Virus record (IMG/VR): IMGVR_UViG_3300032236_000551
Location: 1 to 58,163 of that record
DNA: 58,163 nucleotides
Strand: one strand, 5' to 3'
Source of the DNA: a virus
Position numbers and translations under genes: made by a program. Shown here in pieces: positions 48,149 to 58,163 of the stretch. Below the pieces are notes generated by a model, which was not told where the DNA came from, searched no databases, and saw only the letters and a list, made by a program, of their open reading frames with translations. How positions within the stretch are numbered: position 1 is the first letter of the stretch; each line of letters begins with the position of its first letter.

Positions 48149-51118
48149 TTATACCTTGCTTGGTCTAAAGATACCAACAATACCACCACGAGAAGGACTC
48201 CAACCTGATGGCCAACTATTTGTTACATCACCATCGTTAGGGTTATTACCACCTTTACTTGGAGATTGGTTACCACCAACGAAAGTCATCTTACCATTCT
48301 TCATGTAAACAAAGTTGACATGGCTATAACTCCAAAGAACGATATCGCCTGTATCTGCATCAGCAATATCAACTTTAGTCGCTTTCCATCTTGCAGTATT
48401 ATTTGCGATCTCTTTAGCAGAAGCACTTTGAACATAACGATATCCACATTGCTTTAGTGTCCAGTTTACGAAACCCATACACCAAGCAGTTTGATCTGAT
48501 TCCCATGTTTTACCAGAAAACCCAAGATCTTCCCAAATACGGAGAATATTTGGATTACTTGGTTTACCACTTTGTCCTGTTTCCCTCCAATAACCAGAGT
48601 CTGCCAGCTGCAATTGTTTCTGTAAAAATATTCCGATGTCAGAAGCAGAGTCAGAAGATTTCAAACTCTTACCATTACCGTCATCCTTAGGTGTTCCTGG
48701 GAAATTCTGTTTAACTCCATCTGCTGCTGCATCTGGATTACTGAACTTATCTGGATTGGCAAGATAACCTTCTAATGCAGCAAAGTTTTCTTCTTCAATT
48801 TGGAATTTTTGAACGAACGGAGGAGAAGGGCGAACAGGTGTTGTTAAGAATTCTGTTGCTGCTTCTTTGTAATCGTGATGTTCTGGTGGAACCAAATCAG
48901 TACCATCTTGACCACCTTGACCATTTTCATCTGGTGGCACAGCATCAGTCGCTGTAAATCTATCTTTAACTACAACAACTCCACTTTGGGCACCAGCTGC
49001 AGAACCTTCTTGTCCATGGAATTCAGAACCCTGAACATTAACATTTCCTGCTGCGAGAAGATTTTGTGCACCAGCTGCTTGATTGAACATATCACCAGCA
49101 GTAAAGATATTAGTGTTACCTTGAGATTCAACATAGAAGTCTGCGTTAGATTTTAATCCAAGATCTTCTTTGGCTTCTGCGTAAATTCCCTTTCCAGATT
49201 TTGTAGTGATATCACTTGCTGCTTGAATGCCAATCTTAGAAGCAGACTTCATAGTGATATTACCACCAACCTGCATGTTAAGGTTTCCACCGATAGCAAT
49301 GTTAACATCCTCGTGAACACCGATGTCTGCTCCATGGTGTAAATTGACTGTTGCTTGTCCATCAACCTGAACATCAGCAGTTCCATTAACTAAAAGGTTA
49401 CAAGATTCGCCTACTGTAATATTACATCTACCACCAACATAGATACCACCATTTCGTTGAATGATATAGTATCCATCACCAACAATTTTCTGAACCATTG
49501 TTCCGTTGGCGTCAACATCAATAAATGTTCCTGCTCTGTGGTACAAACTAATCATTTCATTTGTTGGGGTATCGTCGAACACCATCAAATGTCCAGACTC
49601 AGATTCAAAAACCTTAGAGTATGGATATGTGCCACCGAATGGAGCAAGAGGTTGGCTCCAGTTTGCAACATCATTCGGTGCAATAATTTCTTTATTACGA
49701 TCAGAGTCTTTAAACTCTAATGCTGTGTCTTTTTGGATACCACGAGCAAGACGATTTGTGTCTGGTTCATCCATCAAATTTCTTAGTGGATACTTTCCTG
49801 ATGGATCAGAGAATCCAATCATAGCATTTGAAGAACGATCTTCTAGTAATGCAGCTTGAGTTGCTGGTGGAAGATCTTTAACTTGATCTGCTGTATATGT
49901 TTTCTGAGTATCAGCTGCAGGTTTATTTGTAGGATCACCACCAACAACTTCACCCAAGAAATACTCGTAGTATTTTTTCTTTTTTTCGTAACCAGTGCCA
50001 GCTGCATCCGCACCAGTTCGCTTTAACGCAGCACCAAAATATCCTGGATCATTAATATCATGAGTTACATTCATTTTATAAAATGCAGCACAAGCCAACG
50101 CAGCAGTTTTTGGATCTGAAATTAAAAGATCAGGACTACCCATCAAGTCAATATCTATTCCGTATTTCTTAAGGAATTTTTGAGTTTGATCGTATCCTGG
50201 TCTTCCTGTCAATTGGTTAAAACCACGACCATAGTATTTACCACCATCGTCTGCTTGTTTATTGCCAACTAACTTACCATTACCCTGAGGTTCGTATATT
50301 TTATTAAAGAAATCTTTTGCAGTACCAGTCCACTTTGTATATGCTTGTGCTTCAGCTGCAGATTTAAATGTTCTTGAGAAAATTTTAGCAAGCTGTTCTG
50401 CAGATTTGTAGTAGTATCCCTCTTCAATTGGAAGCCAAGAAGATTCACCACCACAAATACCAAGGATCGCAGCTTTTGCATATTTGGTAGTCAAACCCAA
50501 TTGATCGCAAGCATCAATAAGGTATTGTATGTTTTGTTTTTTCTTTGCCGTATCGCCTGTAGTTCCTGGAGGGACATTTACAGGGATTGGTTGTTTCAAC
50601 GCAGAGTCGCTAGGTTTGTTTGGCTCTTTTTGCGCAGTCAAATCAGGAGCAGTTGTTGCAGTTGAAGATGGAGCAGTCGCTGGTGCTCCACTAGATGCTT
50701 CTTGAGTTCCAACTTGAATTGGTGTAGTTCCATCACCAGCAGTAACTGGTTTACCAGAAGAATCTGTTAAAACACCACCATTGGTAGCAACAATATTGGA
50801 ATCAGATTCTTCTAATGCGATTGTCGCTGCTTTGGTTTGAGGAATTCCTGGTAGAGTACCAATCATCAATGGTTGTTGTTCATCAGTATCAGTAAAGATA
50901 ATAACAACCCAAGTTCCTGGGACTGGACCAACAGGAGTCCAACCAATACCATTCATTGCAGCAGAAGTTACTGGCGTCATTGGATATGCCCATGGCAAAT
51001 CCTCTGTTGGTATTAGCGTTTTGTTTTCGCTATGCAAACCAACAATACGAACACGACATCTACCTAATTTTAATGGATCGTCTCTGTCCTCAACACATCC
51101 TGTATAAACTTTCATCAT
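48149..51118 (-). CDS. gp5: gp5-like puncturing needle with GH19-like and CHAP-like hydrolase domains
   Basis: 989 aa (T4 gp5 is 575). Order: OB-fold hub domain, residues 1-95 (CVEDRDDPLKLGRCRVRIVG, WVVIIFTDTDEQQPLMIGTL); Pro/Thr/Ala linker 95-190; GH19-chitinase/lysozyme-like domain ~195-390 with ICGGESSW (candidate catalytic E225) and YYGRGFNQLTGRPGY at 295-309; second gp5 core 430-555 (PFGGTYPYSKVFESESGHLM); needle beta-helix ~555-700 with VGG/VNG-type octads; linker; C-terminal CHAP-like amidase/peptidase ~825-989 (TAWCMGFVNWTLKQCGY with C880, SHVNFV with H933, VGGNQS with N950). No GH24 lysozyme as in T4. It forms the trimeric spike that pierces the envelope and locally degrades peptidoglycan. 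Confidence 0.9.
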   Translation of the reverse strand: MMKVYTGCVEDRDDPLKLGRCRVRIVGLHSENKTLIPTEDLPWAYPMTPVTSAAMNGIGWTPVGPVPGTWVVIIFTDTDEQQPLMIGTLPGIPQTKAATIALEESDSNIVATNGGVLTDSSGKPVTAGDGTTPIQVGTQEASSGAPATAPSSTATTAPDLTAQKEPNKPSDSALKQPIPVNVPPGTTGDTAKKKQNIQYLIDACDQLGLTTKYAKAAILGICGGESSWLPIEEGYYYKSAEQLAKIFSRTFKSAAEAQAYTKWTGTAKDFFNKIYEPQGNGKLVGNKQADDGGKYYGRGFNQLTGRPGYDQTQKFLKKYGIDIDLMGSPDLLISDPKTAALACAAFYKMNVTHDINDPGYFGAALKRTGADAAGTGYEKKKKYYEYFLGEVVGGDPTNKPAADTQKTYTADQVKDLPPATQAALLEDRSSNAMIGFSDPSGKYPLRNLMDEPDTNRLARGIQKDTALEFKDSDRNKEIIAPNDVANWSQPLAPFGGTYPYSKVFESESGHLMVFDDTPTNEMISLYHRAGTFIDVDANGTMVQKIVGDGYYIIQRNGGIYVGGRCNITVGESCNLLVNGTADVQVDGQATVNLHHGADIGVHEDVNIAIGGNLNMQVGGNITMKSASKIGIQAASDITTKSGKGIYAEAKEDLGLKSNADFYVESQGNTNIFTAGDMFNQAAGAQNLLAAGNVNVQGSEFHGQEGSAAGAQSGVVVVKDRFTATDAVPPDENGQGGQDGTDLVPPEHHDYKEAATEFLTTPVRPSPPFVQKFQIEEENFAALEGYLANPDKFSNPDAAADGVKQNFPGTPKDDGNGKSLKSSDSASDIGIFLQKQLQLADSGYWRETGQSGKPSNPNILRIWEDLGFSGKTWESDQTAWCMGFVNWTLKQCGYRYVQSASAKEIANNTARWKATKVDIADADTGDIVLWSYSHVNFVYMKNGKMTFVGGNQSPSKGGNNPNDGDVTNSWPSGWSPSRGGIVGIFRPSKV

Positions 51119-57291: not shown

Positions 57292-58002
57292 ATGGCATTG
57301 CCAAGAATGAGTACAGCATTATATAAGTTAGAAATTCCTTCTAGTGGTGAGAAGATTACATTTAGACCATTTTTGGTTAAAGAAGAAAAGTCTCTTTTGC
57401 TGGCGCAGCAAAGTGAAGATCTAGATGTTTTAATTCCTACACTAAAACAAATTGTAAAAGATTGTGTTCAAGAACCAATCGATCCAGATAAACTAGCAGT
57501 GTTTGATATTGAATATATTTTTACTCAAATCCGTGCTAAATCTGTTGGTGAAGTTGCTGAGTTAATTTTTACTTGCGGTCACTGCGATCAGGAAAAGAAT
57601 AAAGTTAAGATTCAAATTGATCTAACTCAAATACCAATTATTCGTGATCCAGACCATACGAATAAAATCCATTTGTTTGACGATTGTGGTGTAATTATGA
57701 ACTACCCAAATCTAGAAACATTTAGAAAAGCTGACGGAAAGACTACAGATATTGATGTAGTTATGGAAGTAGTTATTGATTGTATTGATGCAATCTATAC
57801 TGGTGATGAAGTGTTTTACGCTAAGGAACAAACAAAAGAAGAGTTGACAGAGTTTGTTATGAACTTAACGAAACAACAATTCGATAAATTAGAAAACTTT
57901 TTTGTCAGCATACCAAAATACAGACAGCATATTGAATTCGACTGTCCTGCCTGTGGTGCTCATAATGAAACTAATTTGGAGGGACCAGCCAGTTTTTTTT
58001 GA
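57292..58002 (+). CDS. gp26: Baseplate hub assembly protein gp26 (T4_baseplate family) with zinc cysteines
   Basis: 236 aa (T4 gp26 is 208). It begins MALPRMSTALYKLEIPSSGE and KITFRPFLVKEEKSLLLAQQ, the typical gp26 start, followed by LKQIVKDCVQEPIDPDKLAV and FDIEYIFTQIRAKSVGEVAE. Two CxxC pairs (C95/C98 in CGHC, C218/C221 in CPAC) probably bind one zinc. It is an assembly factor for the hub, not a major virion protein. The last codons are AGT TTT TTT TGA: the stop follows directly after a U-rich slippery heptamer. T4 order is 25-26-51-27; here the next frame is a small ORF in -1. Confidence 0.9.
   Translation: MALPRMSTALYKLEIPSSGEKITFRPFLVKEEKSLLLAQQSEDLDVLIPTLKQIVKDCVQEPIDPDKLAVFDIEYIFTQIRAKSVGEVAELIFTCGHCDQEKNKVKIQIDLTQIPIIRDPDHTNKIHLFDDCGVIMNYPNLETFRKADGKTTDIDVVMEVVIDCIDAIYTGDEVFYAKEQTKEELTEFVMNLTKQQFDKLENFFVSIPKYRQHIEFDCPACGAHNETNLEGPASFF
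57993..58002 (+). promoter_or_regulatory. Putative -1 ribosomal frameshift site (T TTT TTT TGA)
   Basis: A run of eight T (57993-58000) reads, in the gp26 frame, as T TTT TTT followed by the stop TGA. This fits the X XXY YYZ slippery pattern, with the stop right after it, which favours pausing and slippage. A -1 slip leads into a long open frame that has no good start of its own. A GGAGGGA at 57978-57984, 9 nt upstream, could act as a stimulatory internal Shine-Dalgarno, as in dnaX-type sites. Confidence 0.65.
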
Positions 58003-58163
58003 TTAATCTCAGTCATGAGTCGTTGGCCAACTATTATAAAACCAACTTCGCTCTGATGCAGTATCACAAATACTCTCTGACTGAGATTGAAGATATGATT
58101 CCGTTTGAAAGGGACATATATGTTGCTATGCTGGTTCAATACTTAGAAGAAGAAAAACAAAGA
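57999..58163 (+). CDS. Small hub/tail-assembly ORF in -1 frame after gp26, truncated at window edge
   Basis: Open from TTG 57999 to the window end (55 codons): INLSHESLANYYKTNFALMQ, YHKYSLTEIEDMIPFERDIY, VAMLVQYLEEEKQR. It has no ATG before codon 20, so it is read either from TTG 57999 (ribosome site 16 nt away, too far) or as a -1 extension of gp26 through the T8 run. It occupies the position of T4 gene 51, an assembly catalyst, but the motif P-[FWY]-ER-x-x-Y/W-x-x-x-L-x-x-x-L-x-x-E also looks like the 'T' part of G/GT tail-assembly chaperones. The tape measure (gp29) would be expected next. Confidence 0.7.
   Translation, partial: MINLSHESLANYYKTNFALMQYHKYSLTEIEDMIPFERDIYVAMLVQYLEEEKQR

Follow-up and report, generated by a model that had tools for sequence, protein, structure and literature searches.

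Comparative evidence for a programmed −1 frameshift joining gp26 to a gp51-like domain in relatives of phage T4

The window analysed here, a virus record of 58,163 bases taken at its full length, ends in a gene that is probably translated in two ways. Comparison of sequences makes it very likely (probability roughly 0.93) that a conserved programmed −1 frameshift at the end of gp26 makes a short chaperone, gp26, as well as a long one, gp26-T. The contig end falls inside the T domain. The features concerned are the following.

57292–58002, plus strand: gp26, the short chaperone (G/TAC-N-like), 236 amino acids; PF12322 (T4_baseplate) and phrog_150
57978–57984, plus strand: Shine-Dalgarno-like GGAGGGA, 8 nt 5' of the heptamer; read from the sequence
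57993–57999, plus strand: slippery heptamer T_TTT_TTT; heptamer in 91/91 and in 34/34 further loci
58000–58002, plus strand: zero-frame stop TGA, immediately 3' of the heptamer; read from the sequence
57999–58163, plus strand: −1 frame ORF (putative T domain, matching the C-terminal domain of gp51), truncated where the contig stops; phrog_634 and the end of phrog_150
58003–58015, plus strand: 5' arm of a predicted 13-bp long-range RNA stem; minimum free energy (MFE), synonymous-codon shuffles and covariation
58078–58090, plus strand: 3' arm of the same predicted stem; MFE fold and covariation

The two frames at the end of gp26

The gp26 frame ends with AGT (57991–57993) TTT TTT TGA (58000–58002) inside a run of eight T (57993–58000), and the −1 frame offers 55 open codons (57999–58163) up to the contig end. 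Both observations, the latter as at least 55 codons, had been made in a sequence-only reading of this DNA and were confirmed. The GGAGGGA to which that reading drew attention is present as well, at a spacing of 8 nt and not of 9 nt. In a scan of both strands of the window, gp26 was the sole ORF of at least 100 codons to combine an X_XXY_YYZ heptamer within the final four codons with a −1 extension of at least 40 codons. The predicted gp26-T fusion would contain the junction peptide ...SFFLINLSHESL... A near-identity DNA search among phages gave no match.

The window gp26 matched PF12322 with E=2.4e-59 and 201 bits (gathering cut-off 24.5) and phrog_150 with E=3e-62. Its −1 frame matched positions 59–111 of 121 of phrog_634 ('baseplate hub assembly catalyst', E=3.1e-26) and also covers the end of phrog_150 (positions 236–277 of 282). 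These matches identify the zero frame as T4 gp26 and the −1 frame as the C-terminal part of T4 gp51; the earlier suggestion that the downstream ORF is the T-part was thus borne out. In T4 itself gp51 holds both parts in a single frame (phrog_150 13–280 plus phrog_634) and gp26 the first part only (PF12322 only), and the two proteins show a weak but significant likeness (E=2e-6 in a single comparison). Because gp51 spans both parts and gp26 only the first, and the two are alike, T4 gp26 is the counterpart of the short form and T4 gp51 that of the long one. The match of HTVC008M gp26 to PF06896 (Phage_TAC_3) reached E=0.018 only, which is below the cut-off.

Structure models were made with AlphaFold2, for which a Tevenvirinae gp51 (L099, Acinetobacter-phage-type) was folded as a natural fusion in place of the window fusion. 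Both models are of high confidence. The pLDDT was 95 for this gp51, in the model of which the T domain forms the C-terminal helices after the gp26-like part, and 88 for the window gp26, which is predicted to be mixed alpha/beta. Foldseek found no similar solved structure, and searches of the PDB by sequence and by fold returned no clear relative. The window gp26 model did match gp26-type proteins from many myoviruses, and in BFVD the named best matches were gp26-type or uncharacterised proteins.

Two observations on neighbouring subjects may be recorded here. The window gp26 contains two CxxC motifs (CGHC at residues 95–98 and CPAC at 219–222), which suggest that the short chaperone has a zinc-binding site; CxxC also occurs in T4 gp26 and gp51. 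Further upstream, at 48149–51118 on the minus strand, the window encodes a gp5-like hub protein with GH19-like and CHAP-like matches, possibly two cell-wall hydrolases in one tail lysozyme.

Conservation of the slip site and its flanking signals

The best 80 relatives in IMG/VR (37–74% identity) all have T_TTT_TTN, a stop 0–3 codons on and an open −1 frame, which encodes the same protein (LSHxSLxNYY...YSLxEIExMIPxERxIY). When isolates were included the heptamer was present in 91/91 loci (60 TTTTTTC, 29 TTTTTTT and 2 TTTTTTG), in all of which a stop follows 0–3 codons later, and a second scan yielded 34 further loci absent from the first, all of them with a T_TTT_TTN heptamer. The isolates with a heptamer include S-PM2, HTVC008M, P-HM1, Caulobacter phage Cr30, the rhizobial phages phiM9 and N34, Vibrio phage KVP40, Stenotrophomonas phage Marzo, Aeromonas phages Aeh1, 65 and AsFcp_2, and Cronobacter phage S13. 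The sequence-only reading had proposed a −1 frameshift producing a G/GT-like chaperone pair, to be checked in the gp26 3' regions of relatives. This comparison, in which the slippery run and the −1 ORF were conserved throughout (80/80, 34/34 and these isolates of several families), strongly supports that proposal. The signal is kept in nearly all relatives examined and is absent from the T4 group itself. Among 60 phage records taken across a tblastn ranking, all cyanophages matched in two pieces and gp51 of the T4 group in one. In the Ackermannviridae Det7 and Menlow and in Vibrio phage K452 a −1 ORF follows gp26, and no canonical heptamer was found there.

The same comparison bears on the possibility that one T more or fewer, through a sequencing or assembly error, has split a single ORF. 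The slip site is indeed the only A/T run of at least eight within the 58 kb window, and the earlier reading had pointed out that with nine T the two frames would form one plain ORF. However, independent contigs and isolate genomes share the change of frame, mostly at TTTTTTC where there is no long homopolymer. The relatives, most of which have T_TTT_TTC, lead us to reject this alternative, and an error of this kind is now scarcely credible.

The T ORF could instead be a separate gene, translated from its own start or by termination-reinitiation without any fusion. In GenBank, gp51 appears as a short CDS of its own in S-PM2, HTVC008M, P-HM1, KVP40 and others, and an ATG overlaps the gp26 stop (TAATG or TGATG) in five isolates (KVP40, Cr30, phiM9, N34 and Marzo). 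Yet 43 of the 82 non-redundant loci lack any ATG, GTG or TTG up to and including codon +5 of the −1 frame, possible starts being found in the others. The annotated starts remove conserved residues (HTVC008M), a separate gene leaves the conservation of the heptamer without a reason, and in T4 both parts are one protein, gp51. The earlier statement that the −1 ORF lacks a credible start needs one qualification: in the window a TTG is present at 57999, but it is not conserved, relatives having mostly TTA. In several loci (L016, L020, L022, L078 and L092) the −1 frame is blocked at the heptamer itself and no standard start follows just after it, so that a slip would be the simplest entry into the T frame. 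Taken with these points, a separate T gene is very unlikely.

A stop-overlapping ATG (TAATG or TGATG) was observed alongside the slippery heptamer in five loci (L085, L086, L087, L088 and L091). Such loci could produce the fusion and, by a coupled start, free T protein as well.

Constraint on the slip site exceeds what the protein asks for, although related loci were counted as independent in these statistics, so that the P values overstate significance. The codon in which the heptamer starts has T as its third base in 82/82 non-redundant loci, where codon use would give 52 (P=5e-17), and TTT follows it in 82/82, where 57 would be expected (P=2e-13); at the second slip codon TTC is favoured over TTT (54/82). 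An SD-like match within 20 nt upstream of the heptamer was found in 76/82 loci, mostly at 8–10 nt, against a background of 15%. An upstream Glu codon is GAG in 51 of 63 loci, as compared with 25% in gp26 bodies (P=1.6e-20), and this choice creates GAGG or GGAGG about 10 nt ahead of the heptamer.

A selected RNA fold is present just 3' of the slip site. Folding of 99 nt from the heptamer was compared with synonymous-codon shuffles that kept the protein fixed, which gave a mean z of −2.4 in 81 loci versus −0.59 in control windows taken from gp26 (P=2e-23); a stricter set of 37 representatives still showed the effect (mean z −2.3). The excess pairing begins 7–8 nt past the heptamer. At the window site z was about −5.4 to −6.1, as against −1.4 to 1.1 along gp26, and the MFE structure (−27.2 kcal/mol) contains the 13-bp stem 58003–58015/58078–58090. 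Four of the 13 stem pairs changed on both sides among 15 phages able to form the stem, and sliding the stem partners destroyed the pairing (87% of cells paired versus 25–42%); this set was picked partly for pairing ability, which makes it supportive and not independent evidence. RNAalifold detected no consensus structure in 14 relatives. The 3' fold differs between lineages, some others having compact hairpins at about the same distance.

The SD-like site and the 3' fold point to ribosomes and thereby argue against transcriptional slippage as the source of mRNAs encoding the fusion. A run of eight T could permit some slippage of the polymerase in the window's own clade, whereas most relatives have just six T followed by C. 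Such slippage is a highly unlikely explanation, and ribosomal frameshifting remains the preferred one.

Proposed mechanism, gene order and known systems

In relatives a large ORF begins within a few bases of the T stop. In Cr30 the large ORF annotated as the tape measure lies one small gene further on, and in HTVC008M a tape-measure-like ORF is the second after gp51. Matches to tape-measure families were obtained in three other loci (phrog_4372 with E=2.7e-17 in L009, phrog_794 in L002 and L003). The profiles named no tape measure for the downstream ORF of phiM9, KVP40 or AsFcp_2, and in Kyanoviridae-like loci its matches are mixed with peptidases. In several relatives a tape-measure-like gene thus lies where the earlier reading expected it, just downstream, while in other lineages the profile matches are weak; the window ends before this position.

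The scheme that follows combines the slip site, its constraint, the homology and the relatives' gene order, all read from the sequences, with a chaperone action taken by analogy from lambda and T4. Most ribosomes would stop at the TGA and release gp26, the short form. A minority, detained by the SD-like site on the 5' side and the RNA stem on the 3' side, would slip back one base on T_TTT_TTT and make the gp26-T fusion, the tail of which would be the C-terminal domain of T4 gp51; we infer both the slippage and its rate. As in lambda G/GT, the short form may coat the tape-measure protein and the T domain may recruit tail tube subunits.

Like lambda G/G-T (Xu, Hendrix & Duda, 2004; reviewed in PMC5009743), the proposed arrangement has two ORFs with a −1 slip towards the end of the first, gives one short and one long product, and lies just upstream of the tape measure, here seen in relatives. 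It differs in that no sequence relation was detected and gp26 is larger (236 amino acids, predicted mixed alpha/beta, with two CxxC motifs).

Tail assembly chaperone genes of T4-like phages have reportedly been identified by Vladimirov, Gautam and Davidson (Virology, 2022). Passages citing that work mention T4-like phages of which some have a short gene together with a fused long one (PMC10885494), and signals for slippage on polyT within T4-like TAC-N genes (PMC12846349), apparently the same genes and the same idea as here. Going by these passages the core finding, that some T4-like phages use a frameshift and others have one gene for each of the two forms, is already known, and the novelty that the sequence-only reading saw, in knowing of no established equivalent in T4 gp26/gp51, does not hold. 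The TAC of Vandenendeviridae and Andersonviridae, as far as the description in PMC12846349 allows comparison, likewise has a polyT slip at the TAC-N end and an open −1 frame in all genomes; it differs in its GTTTTT motif and in belonging to other phage families. In the open papers searched, neither the SD-like site nor the 3' fold nor the Aeh1 case treated below was described, which is weak evidence of absence. What is added here is a new member of the family, the layout of the cassette in three parts, and the location in the −1 frame of the Aeh1 gp51 that had seemed 'missing'.

The T4 group and the meaning of the two arrangements

A recoding review of 2016 described G-T frameshifting as widely conserved 'except T4' (PMC5009743). 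T4 shares the division of domains, gp26 having PF12322 only and gp51 PF12322 and the T domain in one frame. It differs in that gp26 and gp51 are two genes on opposite strands, and the end of T4 gp26 (GAG TTC TTT GAG) has no slippery heptamer. In a tree of the shared domain the Tevenvirinae gp26 form one supported group (98/97) and gp51 another (100/100), apart from the frameshift group (85/83). These separate groups fit a duplication in the Tevenvirinae line; the tree lacks a fixed root, and the order in which this happened is therefore inferred. From these comparisons gene duplication appears to have replaced the frameshift in T4, leaving gp26 and gp51 as paralogues without a slippery site.

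A broader proposal, which we consider reasonably likely, is that the T4 superfamily ancestrally had the three-part cassette (SD-like site, T_TTT_TTN and an RNA structure under selection on the 3' side, which in the window's clade is a long-range stem with covariation) and that the Tevenvirinae swapped it for the gp26/gp51 duplication. If true, this would explain why T4 is the G-T exception, why T4 has an essential gp51 to which no function had been assigned, and why gp51 seemed to be 'missing' from Aeh1. In Aeh1 an unannotated T domain lies in the −1 frame after gp26 (L106, about 2268–2450), as it does in AsFcp_2, phage 65 and S13 (L093, L107 and L108). A comparison in 2010 reported that gp51 is missing solely from Aeh1 and that cyanophage gp51 has only some 20% of the length (PMC3037559); both reports fit the frameshift, the T domain of Aeh1 being located in the −1 frame. 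T4 gp51 is required but absent from the particle, and PMC3004832 counts both it and gp26 among the hub assembly chaperones.

The frameshift would remove an artificial gene boundary from hundreds of genomes of cyanophages and related phages, in which gp51 is annotated as separate and short or was missed. It would also link T4 gp26 and gp51, which have long gone by the name of hub assembly catalyst or chaperone with no known action, to the tail assembly chaperone pair found in phages generally. A comparison of the T4 group with its relatives may then serve as a natural test of what sets the ratio of short to long form once a duplication has taken the place of the frameshift.
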